A stretch of DNA of 32,951 bases from Deltaproteobacteria bacterium (lineage in GTDB: Bacteria; Desulfobacterota; Desulfobulbia; Desulfobulbales; Desulfobulbaceae): assembly GCA_024280455.1 (NCBI GenBank), contig JAJRQC010000002.1, positions 1-32,951 of the forward strand. Direction: 5' to 3'. Positions 17,820 to 29,993 of this stretch are shown piece after piece. Position numbers and translations under genes: made by a program. Numbering within the stretch: position 1 is the stretch's first letter; the number at the start of each line of letters is the position of its first letter. Under the pieces are notes generated by a model. That model did not search any database and was not told the DNA's origin. It was given only the letters and a program-made list of their open reading frames with translations.

Positions 17820-19385
17820 ATGAATATAAATGCTATGACTCTGTTTTTGTTAGGGTTTGATCTGATTGTCGGTGCGGTTATCGGGTTTTTCCTTCGCAAA
17901 AAGCTGGTTGAAAAAAACCAGCTCAACGTAGAGGATCAGGGACGGCAGATCATCGAAAATGCTATCCAGGATGCTGAAAAAATAAAAAAAGAAGTCGTCC
18001 TGCAGGCCAAAGAGGAAGCCTATCAGGTTAAGCAGGACGCGGACCGCGAGGCCAAGCAGAGCAGGCAGGAGATTAAAGACGAGCAGCGCCGACTCGGCAG
18101 GCAGCTGGATGAGGTACAGGGGGAGTTTTTAGCCCTTGAAAAGCGTTCTGAGAAGTTAGAGCAGCAGGCTGAAAAGGTCACCGCCAGGGAACAGCAGGTC
18201 AATAAACGGGCAAAAGATCTTGAGTCCCTTATCGATGAGCAGCGCTATAAACTTGAGAAAATAGCAGGTATCGGCCGTGAAGAGGCCAAAAAAGAACTGA
18301 TGGCGTCCATCGAGAGCGAGGCTCGCATGGATGCAGCCAAGCGGCTCTGTCGGATCGAAAATGAAATGAAGATTGAGGCTGATCGCAAAGGAAAAAATAT
18401 TCTTGCCCTTGCCATTGCCCGTTATGCCGGTGATTATGTCGCTGATAAAACAGTCTCCATGGTGCCGCTGCCCAATGATGAAATGAAAGGGCGTATTATC
18501 GGGCGCGAGGGGCGAAACATCAGGGCCATTGAGGCGGCAACCGGCATTGACATTATTATCGACGATACTCCGGAAGCCGTTATCCTGTCCGGCTTTAATC
18601 CCATTCGGAGGGAAGTCGCCCGCCTTGCTTTGGTCCAGCTTATATCCGATGGTCGGATCCATCCAGCTCGTATTGAAGAGGTGGTCGCCAAGGTGACGGA
18701 GGAACTTGAGGTTGAGATCCGTGAGGCCGGAGAGCAGGCCACCTTTGATGTCGGCGCCCATGGAATGCATGTGGATCTGATCGAGTTGATCGGCCGGCTG
18801 AAATATCGAACCAGCTACGGACAGAACATTCTGCAGCACTCGCTGGAAGTGGCTTTTCTCTGTGGAGTTATGGCGGCTGAACTTGGCCTGGATGTGAAAA
18901 AGGCCAAGCGGGCCGGTCTGCTCCATGATATCGGCAAGGCCGTGGATCATGAAGTTGAGGGCTCGCATGCCGTTATCGGTCGTGATCTTGCCAAAAAATA
19001 CGGTGAACCGGAAGACATTGTCTATGCCATCGGTGCCCACCATGAAGATCAGCCGCCTAAAAGCGTGCTTGATATACTGGTCCAGTCCGCGGACGCCTTG
19101 TCAGGGGCCCGTCCTGGTGCCCGCAAGGAGATGCTGCAGAGTTATGTCAAACGGCTTGAAGATCTGGAAAATATAGCCAACAGCTTTAACGGGGTGGAAA
19201 AATCCTATGCCATTCAGGCCGGCCGTGATCTGCGCATTATTGTGGACAGTCAAATGGTGCATGATAACGAGGCAACCCTGCTCAGTCGTGATATTGCCCG
19301 GGCCATCGAAGAACAACTGACCTATCCCGGGCAGATTCGGGTAACTGTCATCCGGGAAACCCGGGCAGTGGAATTTGCAAAGTAA
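17820..19385 (+). CDS. rny: ribonuclease Y
   Basis: RNase Y is a membrane-tethered endoribonuclease that initiates mRNA decay. The 521 residues follow the family plan: an N-terminal membrane helix ([21 protein letters not shown], about residues 8-28), a long coiled coil (about 35-180), a KH RNA-binding domain with [19 protein letters not shown] (about 223-241), and the HD nuclease domain with [12 protein letters not shown] (about 367-378) and GAHHED (about 401-406). ATG 17820 is preferred; an in-frame ATG at 17835 would cut into the segment before the helix. The stop codon abuts a copy of the dispersed repeat, which supplies the sequence right after TAA. Confidence 0.96.
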
Positions 19386-19572
19386 CCAGCATGGCTGGAC
19401 CAGGATTTATAGGTCACAGCCACAACAAACAATGAAAATAGTCTGATACGACACAGCTTCGCGGGTTATTTTCGGATAAACCAGCATGGCTGGACCAAGA
19501 TTTTTTAACGTCACAGCCACAACCAAGGATGAAAATAGCCTGATACGACATCACTTCGTGGGTTATTTTCTG
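19384..19572. repeat. dispersed structured repeat, tandem copies R4 and R5
   Basis: Two head-to-tail copies with a 95-bp period fill the rny-tyrS gap. Each has CCAGC-atg-GCTGG (19386 and 19481), a TCACAGCCACAA block, and a terminal hairpin GAAAATAGYC...GGGTTATTTTC enclosing a small inner stem. The inner stem is GC-ttc-GC in R4 and AC-ttc-GT in R5, a compensatory change. The same element occurs upstream of trkA (4277-4365) and more decayed at 3944 and 4196. R5 ends 18 bp before the tyrS start codon. Confidence 0.85.
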
Positions 19573-19590
19573 ATGAAGCAGGAGAAGAAG

Positions 19591-20805
19591 ATGAAAAGTG
19601 TTGAGGAACAGGTAGCTCTGATTGAGCGGGGTACCGTTGACCTGATTTCTCGTGAAGAGCTGGTCAGGAAGTTGATCCGTTCTCGTGAAACCGGTAAACC
19701 GCTGGTCATTAAAGCGGGCTTTGATCCAACTGCTCCGGATCTGCATCTCGGCCATACTGTTTTACTGCAGAAACTACGCCATTTCCAGTTGCTGGGGCAT
19801 CAGGTCAATTTCTTAATCGGCGATTTTACCGGCCTGATTGGTGATCCCACCGGCAAGTCTGATACCCGGCCGCCGCTAACCCGGCAGGATGTAGAACGTA
19901 ATGCCGAGACCTATAAAGAGCAGGTTTTTAAAATTCTTGATCCGGAAAAGACAAAGGTTGTCTTTAATTCAACCTGGCTTGGCGAATTAAGCTCCTACGA
20001 GATGATCAGGCTGGCCTCCAGGCTGACTGTGGCCCGGATGCTTGAACGAGATGATTTTAAAAAACGGTTCGAGTCCAACCGCCCGATTTCCATCCACGAA
20101 TTTCTTTATCCTCTTATCCAGGGCTATGATTCAGTGGCCATTGAATCCGATGTGGAACTTGGCGGAACCGATCAGCTGTTTAACCTGTTGATGGGCCGTG
20201 ATCTGCAGAAAGCCCATAATCAGGAATCACAGGTCGTGTTGACGATGCCGCTTTTAGAAGGGCTGGACGGGGTCAACAAGATGAGCAAGTCTCTTGGCAA
20301 TTATATCGGTATTTCCGAGCCCGCAGACGATATTTTCGGCAAGGTGTTGTCAATCAGTGATGAGTTGATGTTCCGCTACTATGAGCTGCTCAGTGACCTT
20401 TCCATGCAGGAGATTGAGCAGCTCCGGCAGGATATGGAGGCTGGGAAGATTCATCCCAAGGCGGTCAAGGTACAGCTGGCTAAAGAGCTGGTGGCCCGTT
20501 TTTATGACCAGGATACAGCTGATGCCGCAGAACGGAATTTTGAGCAGGTCTTTAAGAAACATGAACTGCCCGAGGACATACTGGAAAAAGAACTCGCTGT
20601 CGATGGGGAGGCCGTCTGGCTGCCCAAGCTCTTGCAGGAGGCCGGCCTGGTGAAGTCGACTTCGGATGGCCGGCGGATGGTCAAGCAGAATGCGGTTTCC
20701 GTTGACGGGCAAAAGGTCACGGATGTTGATACCGATATCTCCGCCAAAGGAACCGTACTCCTCCAGGTGGGAAAGAGGCGTTTCTGCAGGGTGACCTTTA
20801 CCTGA
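19591..20805 (+). CDS. tyrS: tyrosyl-tRNA synthetase
   Basis: Charges tRNA-Tyr; class I aminoacyl-tRNA synthetase. The 404 residues carry the HIGH-type signature DLHLGH (HLGH at 52-55), the KMSKS loop exactly as KMSKS (230-234), [19 protein letters not shown] between them, and a C-terminal S4 RNA-binding domain (about 340-400). The frame is open 35 codons upstream, but that part is translated from the dispersed repeat. GGAG at 19581-19584 sits six bases before ATG 19591, which fixes the start. A bidirectional terminator follows. Confidence 0.96.
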
Positions 20806-20863
20806 AAATTGGTTATCTGAACCTCGATCCTTGAAAAAGAATTAAAAATTTCTGGAAGAGAAT

Positions 20864-20907
20864 AAAAAAAAGCGGTTGCCCCCTGACGGGAGCAATCGCT
20901 TTTTTTG
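20864..20907. terminator. bidirectional terminator between tyrS and the octaheme cytochrome
   Basis: GCGGTTGCCCC pairs with GGGAGCAATCGC (20872-20899) with one wobble and one mismatch, bordered by an A7 tract on the left and a T7 tract on the right. It serves both convergent genes. Confidence 0.85.
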
Positions 20908-20919
20908 TTAACGGATTTT

Positions 20920-22218
20920 TTATTCTTTGCCGGCGGTAGCACGCATTGTTCGTGCCAGTTCCTTTATTTCTCCAAGATCCTTGGTCATCTCATTCCAGCC
21001 ATACCAGTAGGCATAATCAGGATTAACATGGAAGAACCCCTGGTAGGTGCGCATGCGATGCTTCATGTACATCTGCACCAGAACCTGATCAATGTAGGAC
21101 AGTTTATCCAGATCTTTGTCCCAGGCTGTTCCATTGGTGTGCATGAACATCAGCAGGAACGGATAATTTGCCGGGTACCCGGCAGGTTGTTTGATCAAAC
21201 CATCTTCATATAGACCGGCAACAGTTGTAATCGCCTCTGCCATTAGGCGGTCGGCCTTCATCATGATGGAATCGCCGGCATCCAGTTGTTCTTTGGCATA
21301 GGCGGAAGAATGACATTGTGAGCAGATTTTGAGCATTTTGTCCCGCTCTTTCTGCCAGGATTCCTGATCAAGCCGGGCCATGTCCACGGCCTTGACCGCA
21401 TCAAGGATCGGCGTCGGCTGACCTGTTTTAGGATCAAGAACACCCAGAGCCTTGAGGATGGTTACCCGGTCTGCGGCAGCCTGCTCATCATCGGGCAGCG
21501 GCAGTCGAACGCCGAGAAAGCCCCAGGCGGTGTGATTTTCATGGGTGCCGTCGGGCAAATGGCAGGTCTGACAGGTCGGAGCTGCTGCACCGTCGGGCAG
21601 GTCACCGTTTTGTTTTGCAAACCAGCGCTCACCATGTTTGGAGCTGGACCACATTTCCCACTGCGGATGATCATACCCCATATGGCATTGTTGACAGGCG
21701 CGCGGACTCTGGGCCTCTTTTTTAGAGAAAGAATGGCGGGTGTGGCATTCGTCACAGGAGTTGTTCTGGTAGCGGTAGCCCTTGTCGTGCTGCTCTTTTT
21801 TCTGGGCCTCCGTCTTGATACCCATGTTATGGCAGCCGCCGCAACCGCGTCCACCCTCGATGAGCTCATCCGGGGCCATGTGTGTTGCCGGAATGGCATT
21901 GAGACTGGTCCAGCCGTAGTTATGCTTACCCTTTGCAAAAGAATCAAACTGTTCCTGATGACATTCCGCACATTTTGCCTCATCGGGAAGAACAGCCAGT
22001 TTGTAATCATCGGCCGTCTGATGTTTGGTGCCGTGACATTCGGAGCAACTCACGTCATTTTCGGCATGCTTGCTCACCTTCCAGTCCTGAACCTGGCCTG
22101 GAGAAATTTTGCTATGGCAGTCGATACAACTATCGGCCGCCATGGCTCCTGTTGTTATCAGCAGTGCAGCAAATGCACCACCAACGCCTGTAATCACCTT
22201 CCGCATCTTGTTGTTCAT
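20920..22218 (-). CDS. octaheme c-type cytochrome, hydroxylamine oxidoreductase (HAO)-like
   Basis: A periplasmic multiheme cytochrome of 432 residues with a signal peptide (cleavage near AMA-AD, residue 27). Eight CxxCH heme sites are seen: C31, C58, C83, C126, C155, C175, C216 and C299. The gap between the seventh and eighth and the Tyr/Trp-rich end (NPDYAYWYGW, 399-408) fit the HAO/octaheme reductase family. In non-nitrifiers such proteins are thought to reduce nitrite or hydroxylamine, or detoxify NO. It appears shorter than characterised HAO, and whether a cross-linking tyrosine is kept needs an alignment. AAGGGGG precedes the ATG. No redox partner or quinol oxidase gene adjoins it. An FNR-type site lies upstream. 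Confidence 0.88.
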   Translation of the reverse strand: MNNKMRKVITGVGGAFAALLITTGAMAADSCIDCHSKISPGQVQDWKVSKHAENDVSCSECHGTKHQTADDYKLAVLPDEAKCAECHQEQFDSFAKGKHNYGWTSLNAIPATHMAPDELIEGGRGCGGCHNMGIKTEAQKKEQHDKGYRYQNNSCDECHTRHSFSKKEAQSPRACQQCHMGYDHPQWEMWSSSKHGERWFAKQNGDLPDGAAAPTCQTCHLPDGTHENHTAWGFLGVRLPLPDDEQAAADRVTILKALGVLDPKTGQPTPILDAVKAVDMARLDQESWQKERDKMLKICSQCHSSAYAKEQLDAGDSIMMKADRLMAEAITTVAGLYEDGLIKQPAGYPANYPFLLMFMHTNGTAWDKDLDKLSYIDQVLVQMYMKHRMRTYQGFFHVNPDYAYWYGWNEMTKDLGEIKELARTMRATAGKE

Positions 22219-22298
22219 TGTTTCCCCCTTTAAGAAAAGTAAGATGTGGTGGAACTGTCCTTTGCAACAGCCATTGCTGCAGTGATCCCGGACAATAT

Positions 22299-22315
22299 AG
22301 AGTAATATATACTCT
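22299..22315. promoter_or_regulatory. palindrome at the predicted start of octaheme cytochrome transcription
   Basis: AGAGTA-atata-TACTCT is a perfect 6-bp inverted repeat over the position where transcription should start if the FNR-type site upstream works as class II. It could be a repressor operator. No regulator is assigned. Confidence 0.4.
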
Positions 22316-22355
22316 TATTACCAGTGATTGAAGAAAAAAACTTGATCTGGATCAA
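22315..22355 (-). promoter_or_regulatory. FNR/CRP-family binding site and -10 box for the octaheme cytochrome
   Basis: TTGATCTGGATCAA (22342-22355) is an exact match to the FNR consensus TTGAT-N4-ATCAA. On the minus strand TAATAA (22320-22315) follows 21 bases later, close to the usual 22-base gap of a class II FNR-dependent promoter. The site lies about 125 bp upstream of the cytochrome start. An FNR, DNR or HcpR-type regulator could use it, which implies control by anoxia or nitrogen oxides. Confidence 0.75.
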
Positions 22356-22453
22356 GAAATAATGGATAAGCAGAACGGGGAAAAGACAGCTCCGGGAAAC
22401 AGAAATTCGGAGAATCGGTGAAGAGGACTGGGCTGGAAAGAGTTCAGGACATT

Positions 22454-22497
22454 AACAAAAAAAACGGGAGCCGATTAAAAATATCGAGACTCCCGTT
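22454..22497 (-). terminator. terminator of the perR gene
   Basis: Read on the minus strand, AACGGGAG (22463-22470) and CTCCCGTT (22490-22497) form a stem with an inner CGAT/ATCG helix, followed by a run of T (the A tract at 22456-22464 on the plus strand). It lies just after the perR stop codon. Confidence 0.75.
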
Positions 22498-22518
22498 ACC
22501 GTATATCAATTCAAAATG

Positions 22519-22938
22519 TTAATGAATAGTCGAAACACCCTCTTTCTTCTGACACTCTGCACATATGCCGGTAAACTCAACATGATGCCCGATGATCTGG
22601 TAGGCTGAATTTTCAGCCGCGTCTCCGACAAGTGATTCGATAACCGGAATATTGATATCATCAACCTTGCCGCAATAGGAACAGCGAATGTGGTAATGGG
22701 CATCGGTGGTTGCATCAAAGCGTTTCTGGGTGCCCCCGACCTCAAGTTTTAAAATCATACCGTTTTCAGCCATTAACTCAAGGTTGCGGTATACGGTACC
22801 CAGGCCGATTCTGGGCAGTCGTTTACGGACCATGTCATACACTTCACTGGCTGTAGGATGCGTTTTGACCTTGGAAAGTTCTTCAAGGATAATCTGTCGC
22901 TGGGTGGTTAAACGAATCATCGGTGTTGGTGCATTCAT
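22519..22938 (-). CDS. perR: Fur-family metalloregulator, PerR-like
   Basis: A 139-residue DNA-binding repressor. The winged helix covers about 1-75 (THPTASEVYDMVRKRLPRIGLGTVYRNL). The regulatory metal ligands match PerR rather than Fur: His27, Asp75 (KRFDATTD), His81 and His83 (HYH) and Asp94 (GKVDD), where Fur carries glutamates at the Asp positions. Two CxxC pairs (C86/C89 and C126/C129) form the structural zinc site. This supports a peroxide-sensing role by metal-catalysed histidine oxidation, an inference from residues alone. A palindromic site at 22982 suggests autoregulation. It is transcribed towards the octaheme cytochrome but a terminator separates them. Confidence 0.8.
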   Translation of the reverse strand: MNAPTPMIRLTTQRQIILEELSKVKTHPTASEVYDMVRKRLPRIGLGTVYRNLELMAENGMILKLEVGGTQKRFDATTDAHYHIRCSYCGKVDDINIPVIESLVGDAAENSAYQIIGHHVEFTGICAECQKKEGVSTIH

Positions 22939-22981
22939 GATCTACTCTATGGTATAGTGGTTGCGGTTCAATGATATAAAC

Positions 22982-23003
22982 ATTATTAAATAATCATTCT
23001 CAA
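22982..23003. promoter_or_regulatory. candidate Fur/PerR operator between perR and dus
   Basis: ATTATT-a-AATAAT (22982-22994) is a perfect palindrome resembling the PerR box, and it runs into AATCATTCTC, which matches nine of ten bases of a Fur-box half. It lies 44 bp upstream of the perR start and about 80 bp from the divergent dus gene, so it could control either. Confidence 0.5.
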
Positions 23004-23082
23004 TGGCGAATAGTACATGATTCCTGAGTTTTGTCAAGAGAAACGGATTGTGGGTTTGGTTTTTTTTTTCACCCGGTCGGAT

Positions 23083-24099
23083 ATGTTGACGATAAAAAAC
23101 AGAACCCTTGCGACACCGCTGCTGCTTGCCCCCATGGCTGGTTTGACCCATTCTGCACTCCGAACCCTCCTCCTCTCCTGCGGAGGTGTTGGGTTGTTGT
23201 CCACGGAAATGCTCTCGGCCAGACGGTTACCGATGGAAAATTCGAAGATCTCTCCGTATCTGGTTCGAACAGAGGATGAAAATCCACTTTCATACCAACT
23301 GCTTGTAACCGATAGCAAAGAGATTGCTCCGGCTCTAGAGGCGTTGCATAAATTCTCGGCTGATTTCGTTGACCTGAATTTTGGTTGTCCTGCCCCGAGG
23401 GTTCGAAAGGCCGGCGGGGGTATTTCCCTTATGTCGTATCCTGTCCGGGTGCGGGAAATTATCCGTACCGCCCGCCGGGGAACAAATCTCCCGTTGTCGG
23501 CAAGAATTCGCCTGGGTGAACGTCTGGACGAAGCATGGTTGCGTGATTTCTGTCTGATGCTGCAAGATGAAGGCCTCGATATGCTCACTGTGCATGCCCG
23601 TTTGCGTGGAGAATCGTTTTGCCGTAAACCCAGGTGGGGGTGGGTGGGTAAGGTTAAACAATGGCTTAAAATCCCGGTGGTAGCCAACGGCGGGATTTTC
23701 TCGGTAGAGGATGCGGCCCGGTGCCTTGCAGAGAGTAGGGCCGACGGTCTGATGCTCGGCAGGGCTGCGGCCCAGAGACCCTGGTTGTTTGCCGAAATTG
23801 CCCGTGAAATATACAACATCGACGTACCCAATACCGGAATCAATCTGCCCCGGCTGTATGCGCAGTTTGCCCTGGGTCTGACTCGTTTCCGACCGGAACG
23901 GCGACTGGGGCGCCTGAAGGAGTTCACCCATTATTTTGCTCTCAACTACCCCTTTGGCCATCATCTGGCAATGGGAGTCCAGAAAAGTACAACCCCGGTT
24001 GGGGCCTGGCAGCAGGCGGTTGATTTTTTCAGCACAACGGATCCGGACGGACTGAACATGGTTGAAACGCAAGCGGTTGCAGCCGCGCTTGCCGGGTGA
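23083..24099 (+). CDS. tRNA-dihydrouridine synthase
   Basis: An FMN enzyme that reduces uridines in tRNA. 338 residues from ATG 23083, which puts the conserved LLLAPMAGLTHSALR at residues 13-27; the frame is open 22 codons further up, without family likeness. The catalytic Cys102 lies in DLNFGCPAPRVRKAGGG, followed by TVHARLRGESF, VVANGGIFSVEDA and GLMLGRAAAQRPWLF, the usual phosphate and substrate loops. Where most members have VKIRLG, this one has ARIRLG, replacing a conserved lysine by Arg141. The subfamily (DusB or DusC like) is not clear. It is divergent from perR and convergent with the radical SAM gene, whose stop is 12 bp away. Confidence 0.9.
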   Translation: MLTIKNRTLATPLLLAPMAGLTHSALRTLLLSCGGVGLLSTEMLSARRLPMENSKISPYLVRTEDENPLSYQLLVTDSKEIAPALEALHKFSADFVDLNFGCPAPRVRKAGGGISLMSYPVRVREIIRTARRGTNLPLSARIRLGERLDEAWLRDFCLMLQDEGLDMLTVHARLRGESFCRKPRWGWVGKVKQWLKIPVVANGGIFSVEDAARCLAESRADGLMLGRAAAQRPWLFAEIAREIYNIDVPNTGINLPRLYAQFALGLTRFRPERRLGRLKEFTHYFALNYPFGHHLAMGVQKSTTPVGAWQQAVDFFSTTDPDGLNMVETQAVAAALAG

Positions 24100-24111
24100 T
24101 TTTCCCTTTTT

Positions 24112-25404
24112 CTACTGCAGGGCGGGATTAAAATAGCCGAACCGCAACCATGGAAACTGTTGTTTGAGCTCTCTGTGCCAGTTCATCATTCCCATGGCAG
24201 GCCCTGCAGGTGAAAAATCGATGGAACGTAGGTAATATTCCGGATCCAGATTCAGATTGCGCAGTTGAATAAGATCCGGTCGCTCGGCGGTGATCAACTC
24301 GCAGAGGGCACTGAACTCTTCCTGGTCGTCGGTAAAGCCGGGCAGGATAAAGTAGTTAAGGGAAACGTGTCGTCCATGGGCCTTCATGATTTTTATGGAG
24401 CGGCGGACATCGGAAAAATCAAATCCCCTTGGTTTGTAGTAGCGGCCATGGTATTTGATCTGGGCGCTGTTTATGGAGATTCGGATGGAATCCAGCCCGG
24501 CGGCAGCCAGCTGTTCCACCGCATCCGGCAGACTGCCGTTGGTATTGAGGTTGATTGTGCCCTTATCGGTCCTGGCACGGATACGTTGAATGGCACGCTG
24601 TATGGTTTCGGCCTGGAGCAGTGGTTCTCCCTCGCAGCCCTGACCAAAGCTGACCACCGGTTTGGGTGCCGTCTGCAGGTGTGCAATCGCAACCTCGGCA
24701 ATTTCGGCCGGGCTCGGTACAAACCGGATACGATCCTGGGTGGACCGGCAACAGCCGGAGGGCTGCAGGGAAATACAGCCGACGCAGGAAGCATTACAGG
24801 TCGGTGAGCAGGGAAGCGGCGCTTCCCAGCGATTCAAGAACAGGTTGCGTGCGGCCGGGCAGCCATAGGTCAGGCAGCATTTACCCAGGTGCTGGATCAA
24901 GCGGTTGTCCGGATATTCCTGTAGTTTTTTCCAGGTTTTTCTATTTATGCGATCTTGATCAAATTGTACCGGATCCTGGCGAATGTCTGCATCGGACCTG
25001 AAGGCGGCAACGTAAAACTTACCATCACTCCAGCCCACAGCGGTGTAGGCAAAGAGCGGCAGCAGGGGGGCATCGTCACCAATGGTCTGGTAGGCTGCCG
25101 TATAGACGGCGGTATGGGCCGGAGCCATAAATGCGGCGACCGCCTGAATGGTCTCGCCGGGCGTATAGGGATTGGTGTCGAGCAGTGCCGGTTCCAGGGT
25201 GTCCGGTTCAAGGCCCACCGGCAGGCGGGAAGGGAGAACAAACAGTTCACTGCCCTCGGGCAGCTCTATAAGTTCTTCTGCGGTCGGATTGCAAAAGATC
25301 CCTGCGCTGCAGCCGGCCATGTGCAGACCGTCATAATCCAGGATATCGCCGCTGCTGTTGGCAAAAACCAGATTCAGCTTACTGGGCCGGGAAGACAAAA
25401 CCAA
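24112..25404 (-). CDS. radical SAM protein with extra cysteines
   Basis: A radical SAM protein of up to 430 residues. The 4Fe-4S motif is C203-x3-C207-x2-C210 (CNASCVGC), followed by SFGQGCEGEPLL (a GGEP-type motif), TINLNTNGSLPDAVEQL and SIRISINSA, all typical of the core barrel. The N-terminal 190 residues form a separate domain I do not recognise. It is rich in cysteines just before the motif (C176, C177, C182 and C199), perhaps for another cluster. The reaction is unknown. The start is uncertain: 25404 is a TTG with no ribosome site, and another TTG lies at 25398. It shares direction with the 140-residue gene 77 bp upstream and with glgP. Confidence 0.8.
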   Translation of the reverse strand: MVLSSRPSKLNLVFANSSGDILDYDGLHMAGCSAGIFCNPTAEELIELPEGSELFVLPSRLPVGLEPDTLEPALLDTNPYTPGETIQAVAAFMAPAHTAVYTAAYQTIGDDAPLLPLFAYTAVGWSDGKFYVAAFRSDADIRQDPVQFDQDRINRKTWKKLQEYPDNRLIQHLGKCCLTYGCPAARNLFLNRWEAPLPCSPTCNASCVGCISLQPSGCCRSTQDRIRFVPSPAEIAEVAIAHLQTAPKPVVSFGQGCEGEPLLQAETIQRAIQRIRARTDKGTINLNTNGSLPDAVEQLAAAGLDSIRISINSAQIKYHGRYYKPRGFDFSDVRRSIKIMKAHGRHVSLNYFILPGFTDDQEEFSALCELITAERPDLIQLRNLNLDPEYYLRSIDFSPAGPAMGMMNWHRELKQQFPWLRFGYFNPALQ

Positions 25405-25481
25405 GGTGGCAGAGTGTAGTGGTTACAGGTAGAAGGCCGCATGGGTACTGAAATCATGTGCCGGTGCTGTGTCGATTTTGG

Positions 25482-25904
25482 TCATCTCGGCCTGATTTTT
25501 GACATGATGGAGTCAACGGCCCGGTACACATCAAGATCATCCCCGAACACGTCCTGAATATGAGGATGATTGATAAGGTCTTCAACAATATATTGAGTGA
25601 TAAAGAGGCTGATGATATTTGGATCCTGAGTCAGGGTCCGGAGCGGGGCAATTTTAAACTGCATATCAAATTCCTCCATGTCGCTCATTGCTCCCAGCTG
25701 CTTTTCCATGACTTCACGAATGGCCTGATCTGAATTGGTTTCAATGATATGCTGGTCAAGCAGGCGCTGGACAAGTGCGGTTGATAGCTCGGCGGCATTG
25801 TCTCTGGCCTTGCGCAGCATAAAACGGCGTTCTCGTTCCCGCTTGCGGTCAATGGCATCAATAGTTTTGTTTGTGGAACTGCTCGGGTTCATGTGACGGG
25901 CCAT
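25482..25904 (-). CDS. unrecognised 140-residue protein
   Basis: I do not recognise this protein. It is soluble, charged and helical, with a basic N-terminus (RKRERERRFMLRKARDN, about 20-36) and a C-terminal segment NIISLFITQYIVEDLINHPHIQDVFG. There are no cysteine, signal or membrane features. The start is well supported: AAGGAG stands six bases before ATG 25904. It lies 63 bp after glgP and 77 bp before the radical SAM gene in the same direction, so cotranscription with either is plausible. Confidence 0.75.
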   Translation of the reverse strand: MARHMNPSSSTNKTIDAIDRKRERERRFMLRKARDNAAELSTALVQRLLDQHIIETNSDQAIREVMEKQLGAMSDMEEFDMQFKIAPLRTLTQDPNIISLFITQYIVEDLINHPHIQDVFGDDLDVYRAVDSIMSKIRPR

Positions 25905-25967
25905 GACATACTCCTTAAATAGAATAGTAATGCATATTCGGCGTGATAGACGATTTGTGCACTGTGT

Positions 25968-28157
25968 TTACTGGTCGCTGTCGCTTTGATACAACTGCTG
26001 AAAAGCCTCAACTGAAGCCGCCGTTTTGCTTTCCAGCTTCAGATCGTATTTCTTAACGTATTCCGCAGCCATCCGGTGGGTATTGAAAATCGGTACATTG
26101 AACCTGAGGTTGTTGACGGCAATCTGCATGTACTTGTCGGGATGATTATAAAAAAGGTTTAGTATTTCAGGCAACAGCTGATAAAACGAGAGAGAATCCT
26201 CGCCATAAAGGAGTGAATCCGGATCCTCGCTCAGATTTGCGTCCTCAATCGGGCCTTCATAACCGAATTTCCATCCGGTCAGGCCGTCGTGATACCCCTC
26301 CACCCACCAGCCGTCCATAACGCTGATGTTCGGGGCTCCGTTTATGGCGGCCTTCATGCCGCTGGTTCCGGATGCCTCAAGCGGGCGTTTTGGGCTGTTG
26401 AGCCAGGCGTGCACCCCGGAAACCATCATTTTGGCAATCAGCATATCATACCCGGGAATAAAAACCAGTTTTGCCAGACCGTTACTCTTACGGTACAACT
26501 CTTCCTGATTATCAAGGATCAGCTTGAGCACGGATTTCCCAGGCTCATCAGCCGGGTGGGCCTTACCGGCAAAGACAAAGTTGACCGGCTGGTTTTTTTT
26601 GGTCAGGATCTCCGCCAGGGTGGATATATCATCAAAAATCAGATCTGCTCGTTTGTAGGTCGAAAAACGGCGAGCAAAACCAATGGTAAAGGCACCCGGT
26701 TCAAGTTTTAGAGTTTCAGGGAGCCGGGAAAGATAGTTAGGTGGATCAATCCAGGTCTCAAGCATCTGGTTTCGATGCGTTGTCAACATGGTGTTGATAT
26801 AATCAATCAGGGCAATATTATCTTTTTCCCAGGCCGCTCTAAGATCCCGGGAAAGCTCGGGGACGTCGGCTGCCAGTTCGGCAAAGATACCAGGGTTGTC
26901 TCGCCATCCGGTAAGTTCAGGATGGTTGTCAAAAACCCTGGCCCGGTTTTCGCTGATCCAGGTCAGGTGATGAACGCCGTTGGTTACAGCGGTGATCTTG
27001 TCGGCAAATTTGGGGAATTGCCTGCGGGTGACGTCCCGATGCAGTCGACTGACACTGTTGACCGCCCGGTTGACCCGCATGGCCAGGGCCGTGAAATTGT
27101 ATTCACCCGGGTACTCTTCGTCTTCGGCCAGCAGGTCAAGGATACGCTGACAGACCTTGTGGTTGATCCCGGAATACATGGCTCTCGGGAAACGGTCATG
27201 CCCTGCCTTGACCGGTGTATGGATGGTGTAGACAATCCGTTGGGAAACGGTATCCACAGCCTGCAGGATATCCTGCTCGCTCATGGTGTTATAAAATGTA
27301 TCTCCCAGCTGTTTTTTCAGTTCCCTCTGAATCAGATGCAGGGAAACGGCAACTCCGTGCTGTTCATTGAGGTGAATTGTATGGGCCGTAAAGCCCAGCG
27401 TTCGCATGAGCGGGAGCGCACAGGAACCCAGCATCCGTCGCTGGTTGGCTTTCATGACCATTGTCTTGGCATTGTACAGCTGTTCAGCGGCCTCTCGTAT
27501 CCAGGGCGGTGAGGATGGGATCTTGTAATCAATGAGAAACTCGGGCACAAAGTAATCGAGTTCTTCACTGATTTCCATCTTCATCCAGACCTGGGCTTTG
27601 ATCTGTTCCGGTTCGTCTTGTGTGTTGAAGAATGGTACGGTTATTTCAAGAGGCGCATCCGGATTTTGGGGATCATGGAGTTGAAACAGGGTAGGGGTTT
27701 CCTCCGGCATCCAATGCGTGGCCTGGTCGATCTGACCAACCTTGGAATCGACAAACTGGGAAAAATATCCCTCCCTGTAGAGCAGGCTGATTGCCAGCAC
27801 CGGAATATGCATGTCGGCCAGGCTCTTTAGCGTATCTCCAGCCAGTACCCCGAGGCCGCCGCTGTAGTTGGGAATTTTTCGCGGTCCATGCAGGTATTTC
27901 TGGATAAAGGCATTAACCACCGGGTCATCACTGTCCGTGATGTTCTGCTCATGAAGAAAATCCAGCAGTGGATGAAAGACATCCGGATCAGCCCCGATTT
28001 CCATGGAAATATAGGCCACTGAATTTCCGTCTGCTGTCCGGAGTCCGGACCAGACCTTATCGAAAATTGCCTGAGGAATACCAAAAAAAGTCCCAAATTC
28101 GTTATGGGAGACCAGTTCTTTTTCCGTGTCGATTGTAATTGCTTTTTCTGCTGTCAC
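25968..28157 (-). CDS. glgP: alpha-glucan (glycogen) phosphorylase
   Basis: Releases glucose-1-phosphate from glycogen or maltodextrin; GT35 family, PLP-dependent. 729 residues, the compact form without the long N-terminal regulatory extension of muscle-type enzymes. Landmarks are VAYISMEIGADPDVFHPLL, NYSGGLGVLAGDTLKS, HLNEQHGV, TIGFARRFSTYKRADL, FAGKAHPADEPGKS and the PLP-binding loop EASGTSGMKAA with Lys602. The start codon is GTG 28157 and has no clear ribosome site, so it is moderately uncertain. Other glycogen genes are not in the window. It is probably followed by the 140-residue gene. Confidence 0.93.
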   Translation of the reverse strand: MTAEKAITIDTEKELVSHNEFGTFFGIPQAIFDKVWSGLRTADGNSVAYISMEIGADPDVFHPLLDFLHEQNITDSDDPVVNAFIQKYLHGPRKIPNYSGGLGVLAGDTLKSLADMHIPVLAISLLYREGYFSQFVDSKVGQIDQATHWMPEETPTLFQLHDPQNPDAPLEITVPFFNTQDEPEQIKAQVWMKMEISEELDYFVPEFLIDYKIPSSPPWIREAAEQLYNAKTMVMKANQRRMLGSCALPLMRTLGFTAHTIHLNEQHGVAVSLHLIQRELKKQLGDTFYNTMSEQDILQAVDTVSQRIVYTIHTPVKAGHDRFPRAMYSGINHKVCQRILDLLAEDEEYPGEYNFTALAMRVNRAVNSVSRLHRDVTRRQFPKFADKITAVTNGVHHLTWISENRARVFDNHPELTGWRDNPGIFAELAADVPELSRDLRAAWEKDNIALIDYINTMLTTHRNQMLETWIDPPNYLSRLPETLKLEPGAFTIGFARRFSTYKRADLIFDDISTLAEILTKKNQPVNFVFAGKAHPADEPGKSVLKLILDNQEELYRKSNGLAKLVFIPGYDMLIAKMMVSGVHAWLNSPKRPLEASGTSGMKAAINGAPNISVMDGWWVEGYHDGLTGWKFGYEGPIEDANLSEDPDSLLYGEDSLSFYQLLPEILNLFYNHPDKYMQIAVNNLRFNVPIFNTHRMAAEYVKKYDLKLESKTAASVEAFQQLYQSDSDQ

Positions 28158-28362
28158 TTGCGGATACGTATATAGCTCAAAAAAGGAATGTTTCGGAGGC
28201 GTCGCTTCGTTTTTAACTCTGTTGTTCCCTGATATCTAAAGTCGACCTGAATTTCTAAGACTCTCAAACTAGAAGGGCTGATGCTGTTTTGCAAGCTAAT
28301 TTCTTTTGTCTGAAAAAAATGTAACGGTTCCGGAAGAGGTAAAACTTTCCTTTACCCGGGCA

Positions 28363-28472
28363 TGTAACTGTTCAGGAGTGCCCCAAATTTGCTGATTTAG
28401 GTCTTTGAAGCATACTTATACTCTTCGAGAAGGCCGAAATGAGTGAAGATGGGATGCTCCTGAACAGTTACA
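28363..28472. mobile_element. MITE-like element with 16-bp terminal inverted repeats
   Basis: TGTAACTGTTCAGGAG at 28363-28378 and its exact complement at 28457-28472 bound a 110-bp non-coding element. No target-site duplication is evident. A near copy of the end (TGTAACGGTTCCGGA) lies at 28319-28333. The element ends only 9 bases before the predicted pal promoter. The parent insertion sequence was not identified. Confidence 0.65.
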
Positions 28473-28480
28473 AAAAAATG

Positions 28481-28528
28481 TTGTATTCCTTTTGCAAAGA
28501 AGTAGAATTATGAACCAGTTGAACTGGT
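28481..28528 (+). promoter_or_regulatory. possible pal promoter with palindromic operator
   Basis: TTGTAT (28481-28486), a 16-bp spacer and TAGAAT (28503-28508) make a plausible promoter. Immediately downstream, ACCAGTT-g-AACTGGT (28514-28528) is a perfect palindrome at the predicted transcription start, where a repressor could bind. Confidence 0.4.
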
Positions 28529-28578
28529 GCAGGCTTTTAAATCGGTAGGCCGTACGATGTATCCACTGGGAGGATAAC

Positions 28579-29100
28579 ATGCAGAAAGACGTATCGTTGT
28601 GGAAGTTTTTTGTGTTGGCTTTTTTTTTCAGCGTACTTTTAGTTGGTTGTAGTGAAAAGGCCCCGAAGCCGGAGGAGTCCATGACGGCAACAGAGGGGTT
28701 GGGCCCGGCAGAGTCTCTGGACACGCAGGCAAGCGAAATCGCTGTCACCATGGAAGGGAGAACCTCCGGACCGATGTTGCCCGTGTACTTTTCTTTTGAC
28801 TCCGCTGCCATAGAAGGTGATCAGGTTTCCAGGGTTGAGAAGAATGCTGATTTTATCAAAGAAAATTCCACAATCCAGGTGCGAATAGAGGGCAATTGCG
28901 ACCCTCGGGGAACCAGAGAGTATAATCTGGCCCTGGGGGAACGTCGGGCACAGAGTGCCAAGAAATATCTGGTTAATCTCGGTGTTGCCGGCGGGCAGTT
29001 GACTACGATCAGCTGGGGCGAGGAAAAATTGTTGTTGTATGGGCATGATGAGTTGTCCTGGGCCCAGAACCGACGCGCTGATTTTGTGATAGTGAAATAA
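28579..29100 (+). CDS. pal: peptidoglycan-associated lipoprotein (Pal, OmpA family)
   Basis: An outer membrane lipoprotein that ties the membrane to peptidoglycan in the Tol-Pal system. 173 residues; signal peptide with lipobox LLVGC, so lipidation at Cys24. The OmpA-like domain (about 65-173) has VYFSFDSAAIEGD, QVRIEGNCDPRGTREYNLALG and ERRAQSAKKYLVNLGV, and ends NRRADFVIVK; the Asp/Arg pair of the diaminopimelate-binding site is kept. GGGAGGA precedes the ATG. The other tol genes are not adjacent in this window. A terminator follows at 29175. Confidence 0.9.
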   Translation: MQKDVSLWKFFVLAFFFSVLLVGCSEKAPKPEESMTATEGLGPAESLDTQASEIAVTMEGRTSGPMLPVYFSFDSAAIEGDQVSRVEKNADFIKENSTIQVRIEGNCDPRGTREYNLALGERRAQSAKKYLVNLGVAGGQLTTISWGEEKLLLYGHDELSWAQNRRADFVIVK

Positions 29101-29174
29101 GACTAAGCATCGTTTGCCGGATGGAGATGTAGGCCTCTATCCGGTTCCAGAAACTCCTCAAGGTTGCCTCAAGT

Positions 29175-29195
29175 GCGACTCAGTCGCCTCTTTTT
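29175..29195 (+). terminator. terminator after pal
   Basis: GCGAC-tca-GTCGC (29175-29187) followed by CTCTTTTTATT. Confidence 0.65.
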
Positions 29196-29233
29196 ATTAT
29201 CTGGACGAATTTTTCCGGTGCAATCTAATAGTT

Positions 29234-29275
29234 AGTGTTCGACTATACACTCCGAGTGTTCGACTATACACTCCG
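29234..29275. repeat. perfect tandem repeat, two 21-bp hairpin units
   Basis: Two identical 21-bp units lie back to back (29234-29254 and 29255-29275). Each contains AGTGT...ACACT and can form a small hairpin. A decayed third half (CAGTGTCCGG) follows. It lies in the pal-skp gap (29101-29459), which otherwise shows only the pal terminator. Confidence 0.8.
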
Positions 29276-29459
29276 GGGTCAGTGTCCGGCAGTGTGTATC
29301 AGCACGACTGAACTGTGAAAATGGTTAGGAAACCCGGGATGATCTGTTTCCCTGTATCCCCGGGGGGAGTGTTTAAGTTACAGCAGCTCTCTTATGGTTG
29401 CTCTGCAGTTGCGTATTCATAACAATCTGTTACATTTTTAATGTATGAGGAAGGTAAAA

Positions 29460-29993
29460 ATGAAAAATAAAATCTGGTTGAGCAGTGTGTTCATGGTTGG
29501 TGTGTTTTTTGCGATGTCTCTGGTAACGACCGGCAGCGCCTTTGCCGGGGACACAAAAATCGGCGTGATTAACATGCAGAAAGTACTGGCAAGTTCCGCC
29601 GCCGGCAAGAAGGCCCAGAAAGAACTGGAAAAGAAGATGAATGAGTTGAAGGCAACCTTTAAGAAGGATGAGGATGCTCTTTTAGCCTTGCAGAAGGAAA
29701 TCGAGAAAAAAAGCTCGGCCTGGAGTGATGAGATGAAGCAGGAAAAGGCTATTGAGTTTCAGAAGAAACGACGGGATCTCGGGACCAAGCAGGAAGATGC
29801 CAATATAGAATTAAAGCAGCTCCGTGAAAAACATCTGGCGCCTATCCTCAAAAAGCTTGAGCGAGTCGTCAAGGATGAGGCTGAAAAGGGCGGATACACC
29901 ATTATTCTGCCGAACAATGCCGTACTCTACAAATCCGATGATGCTGATATAACAGCGGCGGTCACCAAGGCCCTTGATGCGGCAATGAAATAG
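29460..29993 (+). CDS. skp: periplasmic chaperone Skp/OmpH family
   Basis: Escorts unfolded outer membrane proteins through the periplasm. 177 residues from ATG 29460, which has GGAAGG at good spacing; an ATG at 29445 would add five residues. The signal peptide ends SAFAGD near residue 29. The mature part starts KIGVINMQKVLASSAAGKKAQ, followed by two long charged helices (about 50-140, the Skp tentacles) and the closing strand YTIILPNNAVLYKSDDADIT, typical of the family. It heads a run with the DUF3786 gene (25 bp away), rfaE1 and yicC. Confidence 0.9.
   Translation: MKNKIWLSSVFMVGVFFAMSLVTTGSAFAGDTKIGVINMQKVLASSAAGKKAQKELEKKMNELKATFKKDEDALLALQKEIEKKSSAWSDEMKQEKAIEFQKKRRDLGTKQEDANIELKQLREKHLAPILKKLERVVKDEAEKGGYTIILPNNAVLYKSDDADITAAVTKALDAAMK

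Follow-up and report, generated by a model that had tools for sequence, protein, structure and literature searches.

The gene studied here probably belongs to the HcpR regulon and encodes a periplasmic, stand-alone octaheme cytochrome c of the HAO family whose task would be to eliminate nitrite, NO or hydroxylamine, most likely through reduction, a reading to which we assign a probability of roughly 60%. It lies within a window, the whole stretch of 32,951 nucleotides that was analyzed, whose relevant features are collected in the table below. The family, the fold, the promoter site, its partial conservation and the occurrence of the same site at hcp and ygbA were all observed in silico. We infer from them the following course of events. 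When nitrite or NO appears, HcpR, a nitrosative stress regulator of the CRP/FNR type, would bind a palindrome at a class II position and switch on the octaheme gene together with hcp and probably a ygbA-type gene. The octaheme enzyme would then remove nitrite, NO or hydroxylamine in the periplasm, the most likely reaction being a reduction that yields ammonium and draws its electrons from the cytochrome pool of the periplasm. The regulatory part of this proposal, which like the rest is read from sequence, appears more secure than the direction of the enzymatic reaction.

Table. Coordinates in the window of the octaheme cytochrome gene, its key codons and its surroundings.
Feature	Position	Strand	Basis
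Hairpin with T run, terminator-like, between cytochrome gene and convergent tyrS	20865..20906	-	
Octaheme HAO-family cytochrome c (P0001, 432 aa)	20920..22218	-	ORF, CxxCH sites, PF13447, fold
Codon of Tyr404	21007..21009	-	Alignment to Tyr467 of Nitrosomonas HAO 4fas
Codons of Asp183-His184	21667..21672	-	Alignment to D-H pair 267-268 of Nitrosomonas HAO 4fas
Candidate -10 hexamer TAATAA	22315..22320	-	By eye
FNR-like palindrome, probable HcpR site, TTGATCCAGATCAA on minus strand	22342..22355	-	Pattern match, conservation, published motif
Inverted repeat, then T run on minus strand, between PerR-like gene and cytochrome gene	22463..22497	-	
PerR/Fur-family regulator, upstream neighbour	22519..22938	-	Profile match

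The first-pass annotation had described the gene product as an HAO-like cytochrome with eight CxxCH sites, and both statements hold. All eight motifs were located in the ORF, at residues 31, 58, 83, 126, 155, 175, 216 and 299, the N-terminus carries a segment that looks signal-like by eye, and the PF13447 match reaches 94.7 bits for a curated cut-off of 21.9. The CxxCK motif, the mark of NrfA and of octaheme nitrite reductases, does not occur in the P0001 sequence. The structure model (pLDDT 80.8, pTM 0.81) displays the HAO fold: Foldseek gave 11 matches at E values of 0.001 or below, all of them in the HAO family, with TM scores of 0.52-0.59 on the query, and in the fold comparison nine HAO-family chains were found at Z 15.5-18.9, the next unrelated chain scoring 8.4. 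By a small margin, the reductive HAO of Kuenenia (6h5l) is the best fold match. The Z of NrfA and the octaheme nitrite reductases is about 7, no better than that of unrelated helical proteins. P0001 is a variant within the known HAO family.

Asp183 and His184 are invariant in 19 aligned sequences and align with D267 and H268 of Nitrosomonas HAO (4fas), which we take to be an active-site pair with a catalytic role. The cross-linking tyrosine, named at first pass as a point to check, has a counterpart as far as alignment can tell: Tyr404 pairs with Tyr467 of 4fas, the cross-linking residue of that chain, in both the profile and the MAFFT alignments, and a Y-x-x-G pattern is common to P0001, 4fas and 4n4j. 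The equivalence of Tyr404 and Tyr467 is likely but not secure because loop lengths differ, by one residue, and the tyrosine of Kuenenia 4n4j aligns two columns further on, with Tyr406. The cross-link itself is a chemical bond, which a sequence does not reveal. Among 102 distinct proteins with 60% identity or more, 101 have a tyrosine in the HAO-Tyr467 column, the exception (L171) being a sequence that ends at its contig's end. Outside this tyrosine clade, which has a support of 97/99 in the tree, ten relatives at 44-52% identity have a threonine and the four most distant have a histidine. The available text of a recent paper reports a separate His-to-Tyr change at the key site within Desulfobacterota and ties the tyrosine to oxidative HAOs (PMC12758564, 2025); the clade meant there may be that of P0001.

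A phylogenetic comparison with IhOCC, also suggested at first pass, places P0001 apart from it: in a tree built with partial reference chains and containing long branches that meet, 4qo5 (IhOCC) pairs with a second octaheme protein of the same genome (support 100/99). This second protein (L055:6093-10477, contig C57) is nearest to IhOCC, with 158 bits to 4qo5. Its operon contains a tetraheme, an FeS and an NrfD-type subunit, and has an HcpR-type site and a divergent YgbA_NO gene next to it.

The cytochrome gene looks monocistronic, since hairpins or inverted repeats with T runs flank it on both sides. Around it in the window lie genes for TyrS, RNase Y, a regulator of the PerR/Fur type, a Dus and a radical SAM protein, and the ten ORFs scanned from 17820 to 29993 yielded no redox partner, as the first reading of the locus had it. 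The order RNase Y, tyrS, octaheme gene, PerR-like gene, Dus, radical SAM recurs in Desulfobulbus sp. HyVt-437 (L101), Ca. Desulfobulbus rimicarensis (L104) and a Desulfobulbaceae MAG (L105), so that the gene is native to its contig; for the same reason a foreign contig is unlikely, despite a contamination given as 4.83% for this genome of 4.15 Mb that is 99.85% complete. In these three loci the PerR/Fur-type gene (22519-22938) keeps its place beside the octaheme gene; it is regarded here as a neighbour only. The nearest named relatives of the host are Desulfobulbus MAGs, in agreement with its original description as an organism probably best known for sulfur metabolism.

Upstream of the gene, the 14-mer at 22342-22355 reads TTGATCTGGATCAA on the plus strand and TTGATCCAGATCAA on the minus strand, an exact TTGAT-N4-ATCAA palindrome that equals the FNR consensus letter for letter. 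The hexamer TAATAA stands 21 bases after it on the minus strand (counted by eye), which confirms both the consensus match and the distance of the candidate -10 box described at first. The class II promoter proposed with them is supported in its geometry, which is class II-like, since a spacing near 22 recurs in homologous promoters; spacings of 22-24 bases are near that of a class II site. TAATAA itself does not fit the TAnnnT pattern counted in those promoters. A generic sigma-70 scan listed no promoter at the position of the palindrome and TAATAA, as expected of an activator-dependent promoter that has no -35 box. In the 4.15 Mb of the genome the exact FNR pattern occurs at 11 places (reversed control pattern: 0) and the broader TTGAY-N4-RTCAA at 28 (reversed control: 11). 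Most of these 28 sites fall within predicted genes, 23 of them inside predicted ORFs, and a second copy of the window's 14-mer sits inside a predicted 373-aa ORF on contig C12. A single match is therefore weak evidence, and the palindrome draws its weight from conservation upstream of homologous loci.

Homologs with E up to 1e-10 are present in 148 of the 257 genomes of the class. Site conservation was assessed on 113 distinct loci, each with 120 or more bases upstream of the gene, near-identical loci, loci with shorter upstream regions and L055 being left aside; of 80 fetched loci, L119, L158 and L166 were dropped since they gave no clean ORF. Exact TTGAY-N4-RTCAA sites precede 26 of the 113 genes, compared with 0.3 in dinucleotide shuffles, and sites with one mismatch precede 10 (shuffles: 6.0). 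In all, 87 of the 113 loci, including these 10 and most of the more distant orthologs, carry no exact site. Sorted by identity to the window protein, the exact site is found in 8/24 loci at 78% or more, 13/75 at 60-78% and 5/14 below 60%. For the 25 exact sites followed by enough sequence, TAnnnT starts after 22 bases in 9, 23 in 4 and 24 in 6 (one locus may count twice), with a total of 1 at offsets 14 to 21. At the Desulfoprunum benzoelyticum loci (L117), no site within one mismatch was found upstream.

Searching the whole genome with the HTH_Crp_2 profile (E 0.001) uncovered two proteins, encoded on contigs C112 and C55, neither of them FNR-like. The C112 regulator (221 aa) is an HcpR ortholog with the recognition helix PETLSR and no cysteine; the DNR protein 3dkw figures among its PDB relatives (105 bits, sixth best). 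Its gene is divergent from hcp, whose product scores 818 and 753 bits to hydroxylamine reductase models, and the intergenic region holds TTGACCTATGTCAA, 21 bases before TATAGT (by eye). The site that the first-pass annotation proposed to look for at hcp is thus present in the same genome, with the layout seen at the octaheme gene. The C55 regulator has the helix RTVVNR. The genome encodes 12 cNMP-domain proteins, and the five examined comprise the two HTH proteins and three devoid of a visible HTH. No FNR protein with Fe-S cysteines is found among the two HTH_Crp_2 proteins, and FNR was rejected as the regulator in the absence of any FNR-like candidate among these or the cNMP-domain proteins examined. 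The FNR-type control first suggested consequently stands for the sequence of the site and not for its reader, which is likely to be HcpR. Because the regulator with an FNR-type helix is an HcpR ortholog that lacks cysteine and is encoded beside hcp, NO or nitrite, and not O2, is probably the inducing signal, and the link to nitrogen oxides made at the outset gains support.

Five of the 28 TTGAY-N4-RTCAA sites lie outside genes: at hcpR/hcp, at two genes that by eye look pseudopilin-like and transposase-like, at the window's own promoter and on C57, the last placed there by judgement. The script assigned the C57 site to a 93-aa ORF antisense to a YgbA_NO gene (115.5 bits), an ORF judged spurious because the latter gene occupies the opposite strand. 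YgbA_NO is the 'nitrous oxide-stimulated promoter' family, and a hexamer TAGACT is found 22 bases from the site on the side of the ygbA-type gene. In the partly available literature, the HcpR motif of Geobacter, Desulfotalea and Desulfuromonas is given as wyTTGACnnnnGTCAArw (Rodionov and colleagues, PMC1274295), which TTGAY-N4-RTCAA fits, and a second motif as ATTTGACCNNGGTCAAAT (PMC545781). The table published by Rodionov and colleagues in 2004, as far as it is available, lists TTGATCTGGATCAA as a candidate HcpR site before Desulfuromonas hcp3 (PMC545781), identical to the window's own 14-mer. The genome therefore presents two features of an HcpR regulon, an HcpR ortholog beside hcp and an HcpR-type palindrome at an activator position. 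HcpR orthologs, all with PETLSR, were found in 30 of 30 chosen genomes whether or not these carry the octaheme gene, so that the presence of HcpR does not discriminate. A script detected an hcp start at 10 of the 30 fetched HcpR loci, each with an exact site; its hcp pattern was narrow, and at the other 20 it detected no hcp start and no exact site. According to the available parts of the respective papers, Porphyromonas HcpR is a heme protein that responds to NO (PMC12750200), and Desulfovibrio desulfuricans has an HcpR1 that binds heme as well as a CRP-like site, and an HcpR2 modelled as an hcp repressor inactivated by NO (PMC5701242). As the HcpR family varies in this manner, activation is not certain; the position of the site suggests that the octaheme gene is activated rather than repressed.

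The genomic company of the octaheme gene in relatives points, together with the promoter, to the handling of nitrogen oxides. The nrfH and nrfA genes adjoin it in L088 and L095/L212, with a nap cluster carrying an exact site within about 11 kb in L212, and nrfA lies about 2 kb upstream in L213. Genes of the hemerythrin type are near it in L018, L082, L084, L085 and L086, the hemerythrin-PAS identity coming from a Pfam scan of L082 and the other four being genes like that of L082; hcp is near it in L121 (Desulfoprunum) and L157 (NaphS2). Most of the neighbour-searched loci have no nrfHA, hemerythrin or hcp genes. The hemerythrin-PAS type gene encodes about 318 aa, and a small cupin gene is also close by in L085 and L086.

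No match to NrfA was found in the window's own genome, which leaves the nrf homologue, where the first-pass annotation proposed to look for the same site, without a counterpart there. NapA is present (over the model's cut-off with its neighbours in frame). HcpR control of the own nap cluster was rejected, the 14 kb fetched around napA containing only one-mismatch sites. Carriers of the octaheme gene were compiled by hand among the matches listed, giving 70 genomes with six partial genes included. Deposited strains that carry the gene include Desulfoprunum benzoelyticum DSM 28570 and Desulforhopalus sp. IMCC35007. NrfA was scored as present at E values of 1e-100 or lower, which 120 genomes reached, and as absent for 13 weaker matches, of which one belongs to carrier G112. 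On this basis it occurs in 34/70 carriers and is independent of carriage over the 257 genomes (Fisher p 0.78). NapA occurs in 36/70, a link that is not significant (p 0.066, 257 genomes), and 17/70 have neither. Of the 11 carriers that belong to the window's family, 10 are devoid of NrfA.

Carriage varies at small scale. In five genus mates (G026, G028-G031) the best match among the matches listed is a paralog about 46% identical, which makes the gene patchy within the genus; in G030 there is, in addition, a short fragment of 71% identity that contains a stop and may be a remnant. Desulfoprunum benzoelyticum possesses two octaheme copies (L117, L121), one of them next to hcp, and a second copy in another genome (G102:C58:34643-35839) contains two in-frame TGA codons, which may mark a pseudogene or encode selenocysteine.

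The reductive direction is favoured on account of the nearest fold, by its small margin, and of the stress regulon, whereas the tyrosine points to hydroxylamine oxidation. An oxidative enzyme would use a tyrosine-cross-linked P460 heme to convert hydroxylamine, originating from incomplete nitrite reduction, into NO or N2O and would pass the electrons to periplasmic cytochromes. The near-invariance of Tyr404 within its clade (101/102), the Y-x-x-G pattern common to 4fas and 4n4j and the oxidative role that the available text of PMC12758564 ties to the tyrosine, with its His-to-Tyr change within Desulfobacterota, all speak for such an activity. We nevertheless consider it unlikely: producing NO inside a regulon that responds to NO would be counterproductive, the best-scoring solved fold is a reductive HAO, the one-residue difference in the loop and the 4n4j tyrosine at the Tyr406 column make the equivalence insecure, and the promoter site is also found in part (5/14) among the relatives with threonine or histidine. 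It may even be, although we advance this tentatively and with more doubt than conviction, that a tyrosine-bearing, possibly P460-cross-linked HAO clade widespread in Desulfobacterota serves reductive nitrogen oxide detoxification under HcpR. If true, this would break the rule that a tyrosine cross-link denotes oxidative function, and the response of anaerobes to nitrosative stress would gain an HAO.

A respiratory role was also weighed, in which the cytochrome would act with Nap in place of NrfA to convert nitrate into ammonium, as proposed for the pOCC of cable bacteria. The own genome, with NapA and no NrfA match, suits this scheme, as do the scarcity of NrfA in the window's family (10/11 carriers without it), a genome (G009) in which the octaheme gene, nrfHA and a nap cluster with the exact site TTGACTTAGGTCAA lie within about 11 kb, and the combination of Nap with an octaheme cytochrome proposed in the available parts of the cable-bacteria papers. 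Co-occurrence gives no support to a replacement of NrfA over 257 genomes, given its independence of carriage and its presence in nearly half of the carriers, and the non-significant link with NapA and the carriers without both enzymes also speak against it, so that we doubt that respiration is the main role. Control by a true FNR-type oxygen sensor, with nitrogen oxides incidental, would account for the letter-for-letter FNR consensus, yet the genome offers only two HTH_Crp_2 proteins, the one with a fitting helix has no cysteine, and the other three of the five cNMP-domain proteins examined out of 12 display no visible HTH, making this the most improbable of the readings considered. Hardly more plausible is an action on sulfur compounds such as sulfite or tetrathionate, with the site reflecting general anaerobic control of electron transport. 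The host is related to sulfur-metabolizing bacteria, and multiheme nitrite reductases can reduce sulfite; against this, the fold is that of HAO, far above NrfA and the octaheme nitrite reductases (Z about 7), and the company in some relatives consists of nrfHA, hcp and hemerythrin. The preferred reading thus remains reductive disposal of nitrogen oxides under HcpR.

For the octaheme HAO homologs found in sulfate reducers and related bacteria, functions have been proposed but not proven. The HcpR-type promoter supplies a direct and testable inducer, NO or nitrite, and with the near-invariant tyrosine one can ask, in an anaerobic organism, if the cross-link is formed and if it dictates the direction of the reaction. 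The joint occurrence of an octaheme cytochrome and HcpR was not found in the main texts searched, and an earlier mention may exist in supplementary tables.

Among known systems, the reductive HAO of Kuenenia (kustc0457/0458, 6h5l) shares the octaheme HAO fold and provides the best Z (18.9) and the best profile score (149 bits), but it is 27% identical, has a tryptophan in the tyrosine column and comprises a chain of 517 residues instead of 432. Nitrosomonas HAO (4fas, 1fgj) shares the D-H pair, the tyrosine at the aligned position and the number of eight hemes; it differs in sequence (26% identity over 327 residues, Z 17.4), and P0001 comes from an anaerobe and has an HcpR-type promoter. IhOCC (4qo5) shows the multiheme fold of the HAO family (Z 16.2) and groups with the second octaheme protein of the genome (100/99) rather than with P0001. 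The epsilon-HAO class (reverse HURM) lacks the tyrosine; P0001 has a Tyr at the aligned column, the equivalence of which is likely but, with differing loop lengths, not secure. An epsilon-HAO gene has an adjacent NapC/NrfH-type quinol dehydrogenase gene, of which the ten scanned ORFs of the window gave no example. The pOCC of cable bacteria and the octaheme cytochromes c of Desulfurivibrio resemble P0001, by their descriptions, as octaheme cytochromes c of Desulfobulbales for which reduction of nitrite to ammonium has been proposed; one Desulfurivibrio octaheme protein has a CXXCK motif, in contrast to P0001. In the parts of the papers available, a nitrite reductase function is proposed for octaheme cytochromes of Desulfurivibrio and cable bacteria (PMC12142623, PMC12093952, PMC11247825, PMC13047784), the gene of the second octaheme cytochrome c of D. 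dismutans shows the strongest upregulation within its cluster when cells are grown on nitrate, an unusual nitrite reductase is named in Desulfurivibrio alkaliphilus (PMC5516251), and a microbial-mat study links hao and hcp genes (PMC8940962). As for the HcpR regulon of Desulfuromonas, Geobacter and Desulfotalea, the available main text of PMC1274295 names no HAO-family member, but that regulon resembles the present one in its motif, in the position of hcpR beside hcp and in the cytochrome c-like members mentioned there.
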